From assembly GCA_003695505.1 (NCBI GenBank), contig RFIY01000252.1, positions 1 through 9,269 of the forward strand: a stretch of DNA of 9,269 bases, in the 5' to 3' direction. How positions within the stretch are numbered: position 1 is the stretch's first letter; each line of letters starts with the position of its first letter. Below, one piece after another: positions 1 to 5,409 of this stretch. A program made the translations under genes and the position numbers. The stretch is from J088 sp003695505 [NCBI: Candidatus Dadabacteria bacterium] (GTDB taxonomy: Bacteria > J088). The notes under the pieces are model-generated. The model ran no database searches and was not told the DNA's origin. It saw nothing but the letters and a program-made list of their open reading frames with translations.

Positions 1-428
1 ACCAGCACGTCCCAGGTCAGCATCGACTGCGGAAAGTTGAAATAGCCGATGCCGGGGATCAGATGCCAGAGGCGTTGCGGGCCGCCCATGTCGGCCGTCA
101 CGAAGGCCAGGCACATGATCAGCGCGGCGACCGCGACACCTTCCCCGATCAGTACGGCGCGTGAAAAGTCGACATCTTCCAGTACATAGGCCGGCATCAC
201 GATCATGACCGCGGCCGCGGCGAGACCGACCAGAAACGTGAAGTTCGAGATGTAGAGCCCCCAGCTCACGTGGTCGGTCATACCGGTAACGGCCAGGCCT
301 TCGCGGAGCTGAACTGTCCACGCCCAGCCGCCGGTGAGCATCACGATCGACAGGGCCGCCATCCACAAGTGGTAGGTCCAGTTTCCGGACGTTACTTCTT
401 TCAGGGCATCAATGAAAAATCGTCGCAT
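1..428 (-). CDS. NrfD/PsrC/DsrP-type integral membrane quinol-interacting subunit (C-terminus cut by window start)
   Basis: The 142 visible codons belong to an NrfD-family (polysulfide reductase NrfD/PsrC/DsrP) membrane protein, which in known complexes exchanges electrons between the quinone pool and a periplasmic ferredoxin-like subunit. Seen: a short N-terminus starting MRRFFIDAL, hydrophobic segments at about residues 22-40, 58-80 and 91-113, a DHVSWGLYISNF stretch before the second segment, and ADMGGPQRLWHL (112-123) followed by SMLTWDVL, both typical of this family. The gene runs off the window, so full length and total helix number are unknown. ATG at 428 lies 3 nt after the stop of the FeS gene and has only a weak ribosome site, so it is probably translationally coupled. 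Context suggests it is the membrane anchor and quinol oxidase of a Nap electron-input module, replacing NapC or NapH. A DsrP, QrcD or other NrfD homologue cannot be distinguished without the C-terminus. Confidence 0.9.
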   Translation of the reverse strand, partial: MRRFFIDALKEVTSGNWTYHLWMAALSIVMLTGGWAWTVQLREGLAVTGMTDHVSWGLYISNFTFLVGLAAAAVMIVMPAYVLEDVDFSRAVLIGEGVAVAALIMCLAFVTADMGGPQRLWHLIPGIGYFNFPQSMLTWDVL

Positions 429-431
429 CGT

Positions 432-1496
432 TCAGTCCATGAAATACCAGAACTTGGGTTCGGTGCCGAGGTCTTCTTTGAGGCGAAATACCTTTTTGTT
501 TTCCAGTACGTAGCGAATTTCACTGTTTGGGTCGAGCAGGTTGCCGAAGATGCGCGCGCCGGTCGGGCAGGCTTCGGCGCACGCCGGCAATTGCCCTTCA
601 CGGCTGCGCTGAATGCAGAAGGTGCATTTTTCCATCACACCCTTCTTGCGGGGTCGGTTGCCGAGGTAGTGCTGCTTCGGATTCAGTTCGTTGCGCGGAA
701 TTTTCGGCTCGTGCCAGTTGAAGCGGCGGGCCCAGTACGGGCAGGCCGCTTCGCAATAGCGGCAACCGATGCACCAGTCGTAGTCGATGACCGTGATGCC
801 ATCGGGCTCTTTCCAGGTCGCGCCGACCGGGCAGACCTTGACGCAGGGCGGATTCTCACACTGGAAGCACTGGGTGCCCAGATAGAAATGCCCCTCCTGC
901 GGCACCTCGTGGAAGTAGTCTGCGTTGCCGTTCTCGGGGCTCATATGGCCGTTTTTGATTTCGAAAATGCGAATGTACTGCATCGTCGAGGCGCGGTCCT
1001 GATTGTTTTCGAGGACGCAGGCCCGGATGCAGTCACGATAGCCACGGCAACGCGAAATGTTGAATGCGTAACCGTACAGCACGCCCTCTCGCGCAGGCGT
1101 GCCCGCGATCGAGACGCGCTGGCCGCGTTTGAGCTCGGCGAGCCGTTCGAGCCGCGCGATGGTTTCGCGGCGTTCCTGCTCGGTCATCAGGCGGTAGTTG
1201 CCTTTGAAATACTCTTCCCATTCGAGCTGTCGCCGTTCCTTTTCAGCGTCGGACTTGCCGATGCTGGCCTGCGCGGTGGCAGCGGCCCCGAATGCGGCCG
1301 CACCGGTCAACAACGCCTTCATCGCGTCGCGGCGGTCCAGAGACTTGTCGAGCAGGGTGCTTCCTTTGGGTGTCTGCTCGGGGGCCGGGTCATCGGCTGC
1401 GGGCGCGGCAGGACCCGGCGAGCGGTCGCTGGCAATCATGCGCAGAAATCCGCCGAAGTCGAGGCGGCGGCCGCGGCGAGGTTCAGTGCTCGACAT
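432..1496 (-). CDS. Tat-exported 4x[4Fe-4S]-type ferredoxin subunit (NrfC/PsrB/DsrO-like)
   Basis: A 354-residue periplasmic iron-sulfur electron-transfer protein, expected to link the NrfD membrane protein to periplasmic cytochromes. Seen: a long N-terminal extension, then a Tat-like signal LDRRDAMKALLTG (53-65, twin Arg 55-56) ending near AQA-S (about 75-78). Four ferredoxin Cys groups follow: 150/156/160, 210/213/218/222, 242/245/248/252 and 291/294/306/310. The middle two have the CxxC-x4-C-x3-C and CxxCxxCxxxC spacings of the NrfC/DsrO/PsrB family; the last is CxxC-x11-CxxxC. The first reads C-RG-Y-RD-C-IRA-C: the expected second Cys is Tyr153, so this cluster may be altered or may recruit another ligand. 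The start at 1496 is chosen over an upstream in-frame ATG at 1667 because a GGAGT site sits 7 nt before it and the upstream extension is a shadow of the cytochrome gene. It overlaps that gene by 14 nt. It is not NapG: it has longer spacing, a different layout and an NrfD partner. Confidence 0.92.
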   Translation of the reverse strand: MSSTEPRRGRRLDFGGFLRMIASDRSPGPAAPAADDPAPEQTPKGSTLLDKSLDRRDAMKALLTGAAAFGAAATAQASIGKSDAEKERRQLEWEEYFKGNYRLMTEQERRETIARLERLAELKRGQRVSIAGTPAREGVLYGYAFNISRCRGYRDCIRACVLENNQDRASTMQYIRIFEIKNGHMSPENGNADYFHEVPQEGHFYLGTQCFQCENPPCVKVCPVGATWKEPDGITVIDYDWCIGCRYCEAACPYWARRFNWHEPKIPRNELNPKQHYLGNRPRKKGVMEKCTFCIQRSREGQLPACAEACPTGARIFGNLLDPNSEIRYVLENKKVFRLKEDLGTEPKFWYFMD

Positions 1497-2079
1497 GATT
1501 CGACTCCATCGGACCAAGGCGTTCAGGGACGATGACCGGTGTGGCGACCGGCATGCGGGGCTTGAGGCTTGGGGAGTGAGGGTTGTGGCAATGCGCGCAG
1601 TTGGCGACGACGCGCGTCTCGGCCCAGCCGCTGAGACGCTTGCCGTGACTGCCGCCAAGCCAGTCACCTACCTGGTTGCGATGACATTCGCGGCACCGTG
1701 CGGCCTGATCGTGCAGAGGCACGTTGCCGTCGAGGGTCGTCAACAATTGCGGCCGATTGCGCTCGTGGCAGTCACTGCATTCCATTCCCGCCGCGTGCTC
1801 GATCGCAATGTCGTCATGGCCGGCACCATCCGGTTTGCGACCGGTGCCCTTGCCGTCGTGGCATCGTGCACACGTTTCGGCTTCATCAAGTTCCCGGGCA
1901 ACGAGTACGGTCGTGGACTGGATGGCCACCGGTTCGGCGGACCAGCGCTCGATCGTCATCTGCCGCTCGGCAGCACTCGCGGTGAGGGCCGGTGCGTAGT
2001 CGTACGATTCAGGGGCGCGCTGGCAGGCCAGTGGGGCAAGCAGCAGCGCGAACAGCAGTGGCAAGGTGGCCCGGCGCAT
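1483..2079 (-). CDS. Periplasmic tetraheme c-type cytochrome
   Basis: A 198-residue exported cytochrome with four CXXCH heme-attachment motifs: C70-H74, C101-H105, C129-H133 and C161-H165, the last in CAHCHNPHSP. The N-terminus MRRATLPLLFALLLAPLAC is a signal peptide. Cys19 could be a lipidation site, but Pro at -3 makes the lipobox non-canonical. There is no NapC/NirT-type membrane-anchored core, so it is not NapC. Its role is inferred from position, between a NapB-like cytochrome and an FeS/NrfD pair, much as small multiheme cytochromes sit in DsrMKJOP or Qrc complexes. It probably carries electrons from the FeS subunit toward NapB/NapA. ATG at 2079 is preferred over an upstream in-frame start at 2358 because AAGGGAG lies 8 nt upstream and the signal peptide begins there; the extra 93 codons would have no hydrophobic or heme character. 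Its start shares one base with the stop of the preceding gene (TGATG). NapM of deltaproteobacterial Nap clusters is a possible functional analogue. Confidence 0.88.
   Translation of the reverse strand: MRRATLPLLFALLLAPLACQRAPESYDYAPALTASAAERQMTIERWSAEPVAIQSTTVLVARELDEAETCARCHDGKGTGRKPDGAGHDDIAIEHAAGMECSDCHERNRPQLLTTLDGNVPLHDQAARCRECHRNQVGDWLGGSHGKRLSGWAETRVVANCAHCHNPHSPSLKPRMPVATPVIVPERLGPMESNHVEH
1503..1507 (-). promoter_or_regulatory. Ribosome binding site fixing the FeS protein start
   Basis: GGAGT on the minus strand, 7 nt before ATG 1496 and inside the end of the tetraheme cytochrome gene. It favours 1496 over the upstream in-frame ATG at 1667 and the internal ATG at 1439. Confidence 0.65.
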
Positions 2080-2744
2080 CAGTGTAGCTCCCTTGTGAAG
2101 ACGGCTGCGACATCCTGCTGCGATGCGTGCAGCGGTACATGGCATTGCCTGCACGACGTCAGTTCGGGGTGGCTGGTGCGGATGGCCTTTGGCGTGGCCG
2201 GTGCGGCGTGGCAGGCGACGCAGTTTTCCCGCATCTGCAGTTCGTGCGGAATCAGCAGCGGTGACGTCGGGGTGGCCCGATTGCCGAGGGCGACACGGGG
2301 CGCAGGACGAAATCCGTTTGCGCGGAACAGCCCCTTGGCGTCTTGCGGTACGTGGCACTGCCGGCAGTAGACAAGCTCGGGGTGGGGCGTTTGCGGCGCC
2401 CAGGCGTTCAGCGGCGGCGCCCAGGAGCCGCGCGCATGGCAGGCGAGGCAGGCCTGCCCATCCATCGCCTCTGTATCGACGCTGTGCGGCACGGTTGGCG
2501 GGGCGCCGTCAAAGGCCCGATTCCTGTCGCGATCGGAAAGCGTGCGGGCTCGCGCCGGCACGGTTGCCGTCTGCGATCCCGGTGCCTGCCAGACGGCCGT
2601 GGGTCCCGTCGACCCAAACGGAGACAGCGCAGCCTGCCGGACGTCGATGGACGGCGTGACGGCACGGCGGCTGCCGATTGCCGCGATCAGTGCGAGTGAG
2701 ACAATCAGGACGATCGCGATACTGGCAAGTCTGCGGGTCAGCAC
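2079..2744 (-). CDS. napB: NapB-like cytochrome with duplicated diheme unit (tetraheme)
   Basis: A 221-residue exported c-type cytochrome directly downstream of napA and the best candidate for the NapB electron donor of nitrate reductase. Known NapB is a diheme protein of about 150 residues with an upstream PH ligand, CxxCH, a second distal His and CxxCHV, then an N-x-F-x-P tail. This protein contains the PH...CxxCH...HPEL...CRQCHVP pattern twice: H87, C99-H103, H121, C127-H131, and then H167, C175-H179, H192, C198-H202. The first copy is followed by a NapB-like NGFRPAP. A hydrophobic segment (residues 5-23) serves as signal peptide or anchor; no clear cleavage site follows it, so anchoring is possible. 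The start is GTG at 2744, supported by GGAGG 6 nt upstream; no ATG gives a better signal peptide. It lies 31 nt after napA. The napB assignment is good, but the four-heme form is atypical and it could be called a NapB-related tetraheme cytochrome. Confidence 0.85.
   Translation of the reverse strand: MLTRRLASIAIVLIVSLALIAAIGSRRAVTPSIDVRQAALSPFGSTGPTAVWQAPGSQTATVPARARTLSDRDRNRAFDGAPPTVPHSVDTEAMDGQACLACHARGSWAPPLNAWAPQTPHPELVYCRQCHVPQDAKGLFRANGFRPAPRVALGNRATPTSPLLIPHELQMRENCVACHAAPATPKAIRTSHPELTSCRQCHVPLHASQQDVAAVFTRELH
2088..2094 (-). promoter_or_regulatory. Ribosome binding site fixing the tetraheme cytochrome start
   Basis: AAGGGAG on the minus strand, 8 nt before ATG 2079, lying inside the end of the NapB-like gene. 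It argues against the longer reading frame that begins at 2358. Confidence 0.75.
2133..2249 (-). repeat. Second internal NapB-type diheme unit of the NapB-like gene
   Basis: This encodes residues 166-204 and carries P-H (167), CVACH (175-179), S-H-P-E-L (191-195) and CRQCHVP (198-204). It matches the first unit at every heme and candidate distal-His position and is identical in HPEL and CRQCHVP. The spacing between the two heme motifs is shorter than in the first copy. Confidence 0.75.
2346..2489 (-). repeat. First internal NapB-type diheme unit of the NapB-like gene
   Basis: This encodes residues 86-133 and carries P-H (87), CLACH (99-103), P-H-P-E-L (120-124) and CRQCHVP (127-133). The order of a distal His before each CxxCH is that known for bis-His-ligated NapB. 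Ligand assignment is inferred by pattern, not by structure. Confidence 0.75.
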
Positions 2745-2750
2745 GTTGGT

Positions 2751-2755
2751 CCTCC
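2751..2755 (-). promoter_or_regulatory. Ribosome binding site for the GTG start of the NapB-like gene
   Basis: GGAGG on the minus strand, 6 nt before GTG 2744. It supports use of the rare start codon. Confidence 0.78.
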
Positions 2756-2775
2756 GTCAGCCCAAACCACGATAC

Positions 2776-5088
2776 TCAGGCTCGCTCGACCCGGACGGCA
2801 CATTTCTTGTAGTCCGGCTGCTTCGAAATCGGGCAGAATGCATCCAGTGTCAGTTCGTTGACCAGCTTTGACTCATCAAAGAACGGCACAAAGACCTGTC
2901 CCCGTGGCGGGCGTCCGCGGCCGTTGATGTGCGCGCGAATCTTCATGACGCCGCGACGCGACCGCAGGATGACGAGATCGCCTTCGCGGATTCCCAGTTC
3001 GGCCGCGTCTTCCGGATGGATCTCGACGTAGGCCGACGGGACTGCGCGATGAAGCTGCGGTACACGGCGGGTCATCGAACCGGTATGCCAGTGTTCCAGG
3101 ACGCGCCCGGTGTTGAGCCAGAACGGATACTCTTCGTCCGGTGACTCCGCCGCCGGTTCGTACGGCCGCAGCCAGATTCGCGCGCGGTGATCCGGTTTGC
3201 CATAGAAGTCAAATTTCACATCGGGATTACAGGCTGGGTCGTATTCGCTGTTATAGCGCCAGGTTGTTTCCTTGCCGTTGACGTAGGGCCACTGGATGCC
3301 CGGTTTGGCCACGAGTTCGTCATACGGCGCCATTTCATGCTTTGGCCCGGCATGGAACTTGCGGTATTCTTCCCACAGCTCACGGATATGTGTTTCATAT
3401 GGCCAGGGAAATTCCTTTTCGAAGCCCATTCGGCGCGCCACTTCGATGATCTGCCAGGTATCGCTCATCGCCTCGCCTGGTGGATCAAGCAGTTGTGCGA
3501 AGTGCTGGGTGCGACGCTCCGAGTTGCCGTACATCCCCTCACGTTCGATCCACATCGCGCTCGGCAAAATCACATCGGCGACGTCCGTCGTTGGTGTTGG
3601 ATAGACATCGGACACCACAATAAAGCGGTCCTCCTTGAGCGCCGCGCCCCGATAACGATTCAGGTTCGGGATCGTGACCATCGGATTCGTGACCTGGATC
3701 CACATGAAGCGGATATCGCCATGATCCAGTGCGCGGAACATGTCGACGGTGTGGTGGCTGGGTTTGGGGGGGATGCGTTCGACGGGTACGTTCCAGATTT
3801 TGGCCGCCAGCTCGCGGTGTTCTTTTTTCATCACCACGCCGTGCGGCAATTTGTGCGTCAGCGTGCCCACTTCGCGCACTGTACCGCACGCGCTCGGCTG
3901 ACCGGTCAGTGAGAAGGGACTGTTGCCGGGCCGCGAGATCTTGCCGACGAGCAGGTGGATGTTGTAGACGAGATTGTTGATCCAGGTGCCGCGTGTGTGC
4001 TGGTTCATCCCCATGCACCAGAACGACACTACATTGCGCTTTGGGTCGCCATAGAGCGAGGCCAGATAGCGGATGGCGTCGGCGGGAACACCGCTGAGTC
4101 GCTCGACCTTTTCCGGCGTGTAGTCCTGCAGGAACGCTACGAACTCGTCCCAGTTCGCGGGTTCCGGCTTGTCCTTGAATTTGAACGTGTCCTCGGTGCC
4201 ATAGCCGATGTTGGTCTTGCCTTTGGCAAAGGCGACGTGGCGCTCGATGAAGGCCCGGTCGATCCAGCCACGTTTGACCAGTTCGTAGCAGATCCCATTG
4301 GCAACCGCGAGGTCCGTCTGGGGCTTGAACAGGAAGGAATGATCGGCGGCGTCGCTGGTGCGCGTCGTGCGCGTTGCGAGGTCGATGATCACCGTCCCCG
4401 GGTGGGTGCGGCGCCGTTCAAGCAGCCGTGAAAAGAGGACCGGGTGCATTTCGGCCATGTTATTGCCCCAGAGCACGAACACATCGGCGTGCTCGATGTC
4501 GGCGTACGCGCCCATCGGCTCGTCGAGGCCGAACGACGTCAGGAAACCGGTCACCGCACTGGCCATGCAGAGCCGGGCGTTGGCTTCGAGGTTGTTGGTG
4601 CCGATGCAGCCCTTCATGAACTTGCTTGCCGCGTATCCATCCGGAATCGTCCATTGACCGGAGCCGTACATGGCGACGGCGTCCTTGCCATGCTTGTCGA
4701 TCGTCTCCTGCATTTTCGCGGCAACCAGGTCGAGGGCTTCTTTCATCGGGACCGGAACCAGCTTGCCGTTCTTGCGGACGTACGCTTTGGTCAGGCGATC
4801 GCTGCCATACAATGCCAGAATCGAGTGATACCCCTTGACGCAGGCCAGACCCTTATTGGCTGAGCCGCGGCGGTCGCCGCGTACCGCGACTGCGCGTCCG
4901 TTCCGGATCGCAATCTGCAGGCTGCAGCCGACACCGCAAAAACGGCACGGCGCCTTTTCCCAGCGGACGCCCTTCAGGTCGACACGGCTCGGTGGCCCCG
5001 CAAAAGAGACGCCCGGCACGAGCTGTGCGGCGGCGGTGACGGCGGCAGCGGCTGCTGCGTCATGGATCAGTTCACGACGGGTGCGCAT
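2776..5088 (-). CDS. napA: Periplasmic nitrate reductase catalytic subunit NapA
   Basis: Catalyses two-electron reduction of nitrate to nitrite in the periplasm, using a Mo-bis-MGD cofactor and one [4Fe-4S] cluster. Seen: Tat signal MRTRRELIH followed by an Ala-rich segment to about residue 30; cluster cysteines C48, C51, C55 and C83 with the conserved Lys85 of CVKGYH; Mo-ligand Cys174 in [12 protein letters not shown]; then DEPMGAY, the [12 protein letters not shown] stretch, MGMNQHTRG (359-367), [13 protein letters not shown] (396-408) and the C-terminal [15 protein letters not shown] (661-675). These identify NapA rather than NasA or formate dehydrogenase. At 770 residues it is shorter than typical enteric NapA (about 830) and nearer the monomeric deltaproteobacterial form. 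ATG at 5088 is chosen because AGGAG lies 9 nt upstream and the Tat motif follows at once; in-frame ATGs at 5115 and 5124 would only add residues before it. It overlaps napD by 17 nt. Confidence 0.97.
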
Positions 5089-5338
5089 GCGATTGTTCTC
5101 CTGTCTCTGGATCATCCCAGGCAAACGTCAGGTTCAGGCTGAAAATGCCCGGCAGTTGCCGCAGCCGCTCGAAGGCGGTCTTGTGGCTGTCTGTATCGGG
5201 CGTGTCGAAGACAGCAACGATCATCCGCCGCTCGTTATCCGGAAACGCACGCACGCAATCGGGGTCCTGCTGCAGGGTAGCCAGCAGATCGTGAAGGCGT
5301 TCTGGATCGGGCAGAATCAGGTAGCTGGAAATGGGCAT
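5072..5338 (-). CDS. napD: NapD, Tat-signal-binding chaperone for NapA
   Basis: An 88-residue cytoplasmic protein of the NapD family. NapD proteins bind the NapA Tat signal peptide and hold back export until the cofactor is inserted. Seen: N-terminal MPISSYLI, a central V-A-V-F-D strand and [15 protein letters not shown] (58-72), which match the ferredoxin-like fold and the LPGV..L core of NapD. There are no Cys clusters or membrane segments. ATG at 5338 has GGAGAG 7 nt upstream. It is the first gene of the nap operon, directly behind a promoter with an FNR-type site, and its 3' end overlaps the start of napA by 17 nt. The C-terminal tail after WDDPETGEQ is poorly conserved and His/Ser-rich. 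Confidence 0.9.
5098..5102 (-). promoter_or_regulatory. Ribosome binding site fixing the napA start
   Basis: AGGAG on the minus strand, 9 nt before ATG 5088 and inside the end of napD. It supports this start over the in-frame ATGs at 5115 and 5124. Confidence 0.75.
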
Positions 5339-5391: not shown

Positions 5392-5409
5392 AATTGATCC
5401 CAATCAATT
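5392..5409 (-). promoter_or_regulatory. FNR/Anr/Dnr-type operator upstream of napD
   Basis: The sequence is a perfect inverted repeat, AATTGAT-N4-ATCAATT, whose core TTGAT-N4-ATCAA (5394-5407) is the exact FNR consensus. Its centre lies 62 nt from the napD ATG. FNR-family proteins with this site (FNR and Anr sensing oxygen loss, Dnr sensing NO) activate denitrification and Nap genes. This predicts induction of the operon when oxygen is scarce. Which family member acts cannot be told from the site. I see no clear NarL/NarP heptamer pair nearby. Confidence 0.88.

Follow-up and report, generated by a model that had tools for sequence, protein, structure and literature searches.

The stretch of DNA analysed here, called the window, comprises 9,269 nucleotides (C324:1-9269) of a Candidatus Dadabacteria assembly of 2.83 Mb, 395 contigs and 84.5% completeness. 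On the minus strand it carries an operon of six genes in the order napD, napA, a NapB-like cytochrome (cyt1), a second tetraheme cytochrome (cyt2), an iron-sulfur (FeS) protein and a protein of the NrfD family. There are two main respiratory nitrate reductases; Nap is one, and it receives electrons from quinol through NapC or NapGH. In this operon the cyt2-FeS-NrfD trio seems to replace NapC/NapGH, and we are fairly confident, from the sequences, that the six genes encode one membrane-attached quinol:nitrate oxidoreductase, a further Nap architecture. This reading builds on the gene content, the fixed linkage of the genes, their separate descent and the fact that no NapG or NapH was recognised beside this NapA lineage in our sample, all of which were observed directly. 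Judged by its sequences, a Nap whose quinol arm has been exchanged and whose NapB is a tandem one is real, conserved and widespread, and as far as the literature was searched it is undescribed; the six-gene cluster is probably a distinct and overlooked route from quinol to nitrate in about ten phyla. The genes of the operon are the following:

5072..5338, minus strand: napD, 88 amino acids (aa), PF03927 with 30.7 bits against a cut-off of 28
2776..5088, minus strand: napA, 770 aa, twin-arginine start, above the NapA equivalog cut-offs
2079..2744, minus strand: cyt1, a tandem NapB by sequence, 221 aa, PF03892 with 42.3 bits against a cut-off of 25.1, four CxxCH motifs
1483..2079, minus strand: cyt2, tetraheme cytochrome c, 198 aa, four CxxCH motifs, lipoprotein-type signal with Cys19 placed by eye
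432..1496, minus strand: FeS subunit, 354 aa, twin-arginine translocation (Tat)-type signal, four ferredoxin-type motifs, Fer4_11 with 71.9 bits
1..428, minus strand: NrfD-family integral membrane subunit, first 142 residues, PF03916 with 52.6 bits against a cut-off of 25.8

An earlier note on this DNA had read the same gene order, with overlaps or short gaps throughout, and the coordinates of the open reading frames (ORFs) together with the Pfam and NCBIfam scores confirm it. Overlaps of 17 bases (napD/napA), 1 base (cyt1/cyt2) and 14 bases (cyt2/FeS) alternate with gaps of 31 bases (napA/cyt1), the largest in the operon, and 3 bases (FeS/nrfD). The nrfD gene overruns the start of the contig, and only its first 142 residues are present.

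The operon was not confined to the window. A plasmid search with tblastn found all six genes complete in Flammeovirga kamogawensis, on a complete plasmid, followed by an epimerase gene that is unrelated to them. A scan from the FeS side, with two degenerate peptides taken from the FeS alignment, covered 84,980 species genomes and gave 122 relatives; the best 80 of these and Flammeovirga make up the 81 loci discussed below. The earlier note had called for neighbourhood searches with FeS and NrfD, and these linked them to napDA: all six genes lie in the same order and with like spacing in 62 of the 81 loci, in three of which nrfD is cut by the contig end and in one of which (L032) the step before the FeS gene is slightly long. 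The gene napA is present in 71 loci; in the other 10 the contig starts past its place, and there was no locus that reached the position of napA without having it. Of the remaining nine incomplete loci, six lie on contigs that start inside napA or a little ahead of it, and the contig of L080 stops short of nrfD. In L047 a napD-like frame stands where nrfD ends and not before napA, and in L070 no napD was found. The trio cyt2-FeS-NrfD stands in order in 77 of the 81 loci, and also in L023. The records of the relatives name Gemmatimonadota, SAR324, Bacteroidota, Calditrichota, Myxococcota, Acidobacteriota, Chloroflexota, Desulfobacterota, Fibrobacterota and Kiritimatiellota, some of these ten being given there as classes or families, and the named strains Sulfidibacter corallicola and Acanthopleuribacter pedis carry the operon. 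When the taxonomy was searched by family, order, class and phylum, the source genome alone was returned; either it is the sole member of its phylum in the collection, or its kin are unassigned.

The pairing was also seen from the side of NapA. A profile of 12 NapA proteins of this type was run over the 257 genomes of Desulfobulbales (the order of G033, a Desulforhopalus) at E<=1e-150, and 138 of them had a NapA-like match. The scores fell into two groups, 64 genomes at 1533-1620 bits and a lower group in which none exceeded 766. Partial matches of the high type occurred in G525 (1360 bits) and G431 (1131), with a fragment in G558 (978), and a partial match in G537 (663 bits over 341 positions) may be another. 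NapA of this type is thus found in at least 66 of the 257 genomes, or 66 of the 138 with a NapA-like match. From the 64 high scorers we hand-picked 20, and from the lower group 19; the stretches fetched for the former span about 4-9 kb, mostly the operon and little more. All 20 high scorers showed the order NapD, NapA, tandem NapB, tetraheme cytochrome, FeS, with NrfD next in 18 and a contig-end cut in L225 and L233; in L239 cyt2 was found only as a piece with one CxxCH. NapC, NapG and NapH were not recognised in the stretches fetched for these 20 loci. All 19 lower scorers lie with NapG and NapH, seven in the classical arrangement NapF-D-A-G-H-B and twelve as a small tetraheme cytochrome, NapA, NapG and NapH. 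The pairing of NapA lineage and electron arm had no exception in the 39 sampled loci, which come from related genomes and do not represent 39 independent events. In Acidobacteriota this NapA is rare: a NapA-like match was present in 35 of 396 genomes, of which two, G007 and G049, score as this type and have the operon.

The earlier note had proposed that the NrfD/FeS module stands in place of NapC/NapGH. In line with this, the complete Flammeovirga operon contains no napC, napG or napH, as was the case for the 20 stretches above. When E. coli NapC, NapG and NapH were compared by BLAST with the 81 loci, L075 alone showed clear NapG and NapH, as parts of a second nap cluster of the classical kind that lies downstream of the six-gene operon; weak NapH-like frames (22-28% identical) were seen close to the operon in three loci, L037, L038 and L081. 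The note had also called for a search of the source genome, and at its 84.5% completeness this genome gave no match to PF03264 (NapC/NirT) or TIGR02163 (NapH) at E<=0.001. A survey of donors in 35 genomes, the window's own and 34 of the 80 host genomes, found NapH above its cut-off only in G029, the genome that carries L075, and no PF03264 match in eight, the window's included. The stretch L075 5723-16886, from a Desulfobacterales metagenome-assembled genome (MAG), holds the six-gene operon and, directly after it, napF-napA-napG-napH, with nrfA and a NapC-family gene upstream.

The trees bear out a separate descent, as the earlier note had anticipated for NrfD and FeS. Among the 97 NrfD proteins of one tree, all 75 that are Nap-linked fall into a single clade (support 100/100) and 14 DsrP proteins into another (99/99), and the split holds where single genomes carry both. 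Nap-linked rows of 381-459 residues only were used; shorter and over-long ones were left out, the window's piece among them. Three groups labelled DsrP were named by score and clade, and the DsrP identity was checked by neighbours in L152 only, which has DsrM, K, J and O alongside. For FeS, 82 Nap-linked rows, after one short row had been dropped, fall on one side of a branch with an SH-aLRT of 99 by a quick method. A NapA tree of 43 rows, including 33 relatives and the window, separates the 34 rows of this type from seven classical rows (88/95; classical clade 100/100); the long outgroup branches weaken its rooting. The nearest sequences to the window's NapA in this tree are from Gemmatimonadota and Acidobacteriota, and L075 carries both NapA lineages.

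The direct sister of the Nap-linked NrfD clade is L156 from a SAR324 genome (100/98), with a trio that has no NapA in its 13 kb and a same-strand cytochrome c gene 585 bases upstream, as would suit a general quinol-to-cytochrome arm. The next branch (90/70) comprises L153, a contig fragment starting inside FeS, L154, whose cytochrome shows three CxxCH, and L158. L158 (4362-10199), from Flavobacteriaceae, holds a trio, again without NapA, and after it one more FeS-NrfD pair, whose NrfD belongs to a different branch. An Acidobacteriota stretch, L214 (G353:C87:47700-62100), has a trio and then an octaheme-bearing frame beside NapA, a tetraheme cytochrome, NapG and NapH, and resembles the locus described close to nap in Thermosulfurimonas.

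NrfD proteins are quinol-binding. The window's NrfD is 64% identical to the complete Flammeovirga NrfD (405 aa) over 136 residues, and polar residues, among them E102, D119, R218 and E272 in the numbering of Flammeovirga, are conserved in all 75 sequences compared. Against the DsrP equivalog model NF045798, with a cut-off of 350, the incomplete window piece scores 163.6 and the NrfD of L007 412.5. The model is above its cut-off in 34 of the 35 surveyed genomes, and in 17 of them it has a single match, above the cut-off, which must be the Nap-linked NrfD; for G001 and G007 the coordinates of the match and of this NrfD were compared by eye. The Flammeovirga nrfD (L006 9928-11145) is labelled DsrP in its record. 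It is likely that NF045798 systematically misannotates the Nap-linked NrfD as the DsrMKJOP subunit DsrP, and a DsrP label is by itself no evidence of sulfate metabolism.

The FeS subunit is 64% identical to that of Flammeovirga over 74% of the query, and RR occurs within 80 residues of its start in 81 of 81 sequences, a loose test of a twin-arginine signal. There are 15 Cys columns kept in all 82 sequences, and four ferredoxin motifs would need 16. The first motif has three Cys, its second position being Tyr or Phe in 60 of the 61 readable cases and Ser in one (the regular expression for this motif missed 21 of the 82 sequences), and the first cluster may, from this pattern, be a [3Fe-4S]. With the DsrO equivalog model, whose cut-off is 200, the window's FeS protein stays at 185 bits and that of L007 at 185.2. 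Most of the first-motif Cys are lacking from 12 DsrO proteins: all 12 are without the first and nine of 12 without the next.

The first cytochrome is of the NapB family, as the earlier note had it, and PF03892 and the half-profile matches below uphold this; it is not the standard diheme form. Compared with the two hemes of NapB, four CxxCH motifs are present in the window and in 73 of the 76 relatives in which cyt1 was found, with heme spacings of 28, 48 and 23 in 64 of the 76. Profiles of the N-terminal and C-terminal halves matched each other (hhalign probability 99.4, E 1.5e-21), and each half matched E. coli NapB (probabilities 97.2 and 96.0). The two halves being alike and both NapB-matching, cyt1 is, by profile comparison, a four-heme tandem NapB. 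The assignment is based on these profiles and not on a strict NapB-motif regular expression, which found two copies in 22 of the 76 proteins, one in 47 and none in seven. Four further His are invariant across 52 sequences, as would be expected for four bis-histidine hemes. The AlphaFold model has an N-terminal hydrophobic helix at residues 2-28, with a predicted local distance difference test (pLDDT) score of 91 (1-10), 97 (11-20) and 74 (21-30), and this helix is probably an uncleaved membrane anchor. Identity to the Flammeovirga counterpart is 39% for cyt1 and 29% for cyt2.

Four-heme NapB-like proteins were also seen elsewhere. Acidobacteriota stretches L197, L200, L201, L203-L205 and L207-L210 hold an octaheme cytochrome, a NapA that is 53-58% identical to that of the window or Flammeovirga, and a four-heme NapB-like protein; no NrfD arm and no NapC, NapG or NapH were recognised within them. 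L198 and L199 have NapA and a four-heme NapB with no octaheme in view. The tandem NapB is thus not tied to the trio, since related Acidobacteriota NapA has such a protein without the trio in these stretches.

The second cytochrome has four CxxCH in 78 of the 79 relatives with cyt2, and four further His (H88, H95, H145 and H168) are invariant across 53 sequences. A strict lipobox pattern occurs in 17 of 76 cyt2 proteins. By eye, a Cys after the signal helix is present in more of the non-Desulfobacterota and absent from most Desulfobacterota, and from these patterns lipid anchoring of cyt2 is not general. We considered cyt2 as a NapC and rejected this, the window's protein having no PF03264 match at E<=0.001. 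Two cyt2 proteins were put to Pfam, and the other one, from L082, touches PF03264 with 24.2 bits against a cut-off of 24.1 over about 40 positions.

NapA itself appears to be a periplasmic molybdenum nitrate reductase, with nitrate as the substrate that the sequence suggests. The open frame of napA, which extends to 5124, is above both NapA equivalog cut-offs, with 990.5 against 904 for PRK13532 and 956.9 against 930.55 for TIGR01706, and has RR at residues 4-5. It aligns over the full length with the solved structures 3ml1 and 2nya, which we take to be NapA of Cupriavidus and E. coli, except near position 566, where about 50 residues of those enzymes are missing from it, and it is about 58 residues shorter than E. 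coli NapA. The Cys motifs of NapA provide the ligands of the [4Fe-4S] cluster and the Cys ligand of molybdenum. The CxxCxxxC..C, CVKG and ARLCMASA segments align with both structures; CxxCxxxC..C and ARxCMASA are invariant in 12 aligned rows, apart from the L of ARLCMASA. The window's NapA is 75% identical to that of L007, 68% to that of Flammeovirga and about 44-48% to classical NapA among the plasmid matches, and it scores 629 bits against the solved NapA of D. desulfuricans and 819 against that of Cupriavidus. NapD is the chaperone of the Tat signal of NapA; the napD of the window had no NCBIfam match at E<=0.001.

That the products form one complex is our inference from these parts, and so are the order of electron transfer, nitrate as substrate, the identity of the quinone and what becomes of the protons. 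The cyt2-FeS-NrfD trio would be the quinol arm and NapD-A-tandem NapB the reductase. NrfD would oxidise quinol, probably at the periplasmic side of the membrane, and the electrons would pass through the NrfC/DsrO-like FeS clusters to the tetraheme cyt2, then to the membrane-anchored tandem NapB and from there to NapA, whose [4Fe-4S] cluster and molybdenum would receive them for the reduction of nitrate to nitrite. The earlier note had suggested a membrane-attached quinol:nitrate oxidoreductase with a different electron arm, and the linkage, the separate clades and the lack of NapC/NapGH argue for such a complex. Nap respiration is regarded as electroneutral. An energy-conserving Nap, in which quinol oxidation of the NrfD type moves or separates protons and periplasmic nitrate reduction adds to the proton motive force, would if true overturn this textbook view; we consider it rather doubtful. 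In QrcD, a relative of NrfD, protons are taken up from the cytoplasm with an H+/e- of 1, and essential residues are identified in the available text of that study (PMC13059093); this proton uptake makes a charge-separating Nap conceivable.

The trio could instead be a separate quinol:cytochrome c reductase, of the DsrOP type or resembling alternative complex III, that feeds a general periplasmic pool from which NapA draws. In its favour, there are trio loci without NapA (L154, L156 and L158), the trio of L214 lies beside a NapA-NapG-NapH cluster, and a stand-alone dsrOhPh-tetrahaem locus in cable bacteria and relatives appears as a candidate alternative complex III in the available text of PMC13047784. 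A pool would, however, not need strict pairing, and the Nap-linked NrfD and FeS proteins form clades of their own, are never without napA in the 71 loci of the 81 that reach its place, and accompany this NapA lineage in 20 of 20 NapA-first cases; we think a separate reductase improbable. It is even less probable, and by a good deal, that NapA reduces another substrate (selenate, perchlorate or another oxyanion) or runs backwards. The lineage is distinct at about 44-48% identity to classical NapA, and we know of no characterised member, but both NapA equivalog cut-offs are passed, the Cys and FeS motifs line up with those of solved NapA proteins, and napD is kept. As a single short contig from a MAG of 395 contigs, the window could raise the thought of an assembly or binning artefact joining unrelated genes; the same order in a complete plasmid, in named strains and in many other assemblies has already refuted this, and we give it practically no weight.

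A single quinol:nitrate oxidoreductase with the trio as its quinol arm remains the reading we prefer, and several points weigh against it. Linkage is no proof of a complex, the evidence is all sequence, and no purified protein or mutant of this type was found in the open-licence literature. Most hosts are MAGs, and the NrfD of the window is incomplete. The AlphaFold models have a mean pLDDT of 66.3 for cyt1 and 59.2 for cyt2, too poor for folds or interfaces, and Foldseek with the weak cyt1 model gave one match only, at E 9.1. The support for NapA as a single clade is moderate (88/95), and the tree includes no NapA of the napMADGH type, except for one NapA-like row that is undefined. The low-scoring NapA loci L256, L259 and L260 have a distant FeS or NrfD gene nearby. 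In L081 nrfD is directly followed, in the same orientation, by a frame of 347 aa (12092-13135) that is 24% identical to E. coli NapH; by sequence it seems to be a membrane ferredoxin-like protein of unassigned family. NapH-like matches below the cut-off occur in 32 of the 35 surveyed hosts, and at the same level in 12 of 14 control genomes. A match to the NapC/NirT family is held by 27 of the 35. We looked at 20 of the 53 PF03264 matches listed, from 19 of these 27 genomes, and 18 of the 20 are probably NrfH, because NrfA adjoins them. The two exceptions, in G034 (L090, no NrfA near) and G033 (L091, in a NapA-like cluster with NapG, NapH and NapC), may be real NapC-type proteins, and in some hosts another donor could also serve.

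The flanks of the operon were scanned for ORFs of at least 90 aa, and most of the recurrent families were tested on one member each. No same-strand ORF of this size lies within 100 bases after nrfD in 50 of 68 loci; 18 have one, and the sole recurring follower among these, in six flanks, is a MoCF_biosynth protein, tested on L045. Neither this follower nor the epimerase that comes next in Flammeovirga is a downstream catalytic subunit claiming the FeS/NrfD pair, a possibility that the earlier note had kept in view. Molybdenum-cofactor-type and ScdA/hemerythrin-type proteins form flank families that recur in 5-6 of the 81 loci each, with these members:

L045, 12215-13264: flank-family member
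L057, 1269-2345: flank-family member
L082, 11931-12863: flank-family member
L011, 1150-2112: flank-family member

In the window a long ORF on the same strand ends 104 bases upstream of the operon; we take it to resemble glnE, and the ORF preceding it presumably resembles gatB. Between the glnE-like ORF and napD lies one further feature:

5394..5407, no strand assigned: FNR-type palindrome TTGAT-N4-ATCAA, exact match, 55 bases upstream of the napD start codon

We take TTGAT-N4-ATCAA as the FNR-type consensus. The window has one exact match, with 0.17 matches expected by chance at <=1 mismatch, and from its place it is possible that this is a regulator site of the six-gene operon. An exact palindrome upstream of napD was found in 3 of 60 relatives (L015, L016 and L082; 0.07 expected), two of which are near-copies of each other, and since it is exact in so few it is not general in the operon.

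Surveys that judge nap systems by napC or napGH would miss an NrfD-linked Nap, and its existence makes it testable whether periplasmic nitrate reduction conserves energy. Stand-alone DsrOP-tetraheme loci, for example in cable bacteria, are also given a suggested role, the transfer of electrons from quinol to periplasmic cytochromes.

No description of the six-gene operon was found in the open-licence literature, the search being confined to that literature with subscription papers, preprints and supplements outside it. A 2026 review of Nap distinguishes four operon structures, napEDABC, napDAGHB, napCMADGH and napAGHBFLD, and NrfD is absent from its available text (PMC13223375); the operon is not among these four, and the earlier note had allowed that it might be a standard Nap type. 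The available text of a 2021 review of NrfD-like subunits makes no mention of Nap (PMC8076601). Genes for NrfD, FeS and multiheme proteins have been seen beside nap, as here, in two tunnel MAGs, in a cluster that includes ActD and adjoins Nap and Nxr genes (PMC10732223), and in a four-gene locus near the napMADGH cluster of Thermosulfurimonas dismutans (PMC5276818, PMC4911364). The roles suggested by the authors, in the available text of these three papers, are respiratory electron transfer, nitrite reduction or sulfur metabolism, and not a quinol arm of NapA. In cable bacteria, homologues of DsrOP at a separate locus were first termed putative DsrOP (PMC10926707, 2024), and later text describes the locus, tetraheme cytochrome included, as a candidate for an alternative complex III, with no function assigned there (PMC13047784, 2026). 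As far as it can be compared by description, that locus shares the tetraheme cytochrome, the DsrO-like and DsrP-like proteins and a proposed transfer of electrons from quinone to the periplasm, but has no NapA as described.

With classical Nap (napEDABC, napDAGHB and napAGHBFLD) the operon of the window shares NapD, NapA, a NapB-type donor and a quinol-fed periplasmic reduction of nitrate. The quinol arm is NapC or NapGH in the former and cyt2-FeS-NrfD in the latter, the classical NapB has two hemes as compared to four, in two NapB halves, in cyt1, and the NapA proteins lie on separate branches (88/95). The napCMADGH and napMADGH clusters of Desulfovibrio desulfuricans, Thermosulfurimonas and Caldithrix also have a tetraheme cytochrome in the nap operon and a NapA of similar length, and some genomes with the six-gene operon also contain such a cluster; unlike the operon, these clusters have NapG and NapH and no NapB in the available descriptions (PMC5276818, PMC5317091). 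NrfABCD of E. coli likewise has a multiheme cytochrome, FeS and NrfD feeding a periplasmic reductase of the nitrogen cycle, but the reductase is NrfA, the cytochrome is the pentaheme NrfB, and E. coli NrfD is far from the Nap-linked NrfD in the tree. The nearest named relatives are in DsrMKJOP, which shares the FeS and NrfD pair with a multiheme cytochrome just upstream, and full-length Nap-linked NrfD is above the NCBI cut-off for DsrP, yet its clade is apart from that of DsrP. No match to the DsrM, DsrK or DsrJ families was found in the window, and the control L152 shows DsrM-K-J-O-P. The operon differs from DsrMKJOP in having napA in place of dsrMK and FeS and NrfD proteins of separate clades, and the Nap-linked FeS is below the DsrO cut-off and keeps the Cys of the first motif that the 12 DsrO proteins lack.

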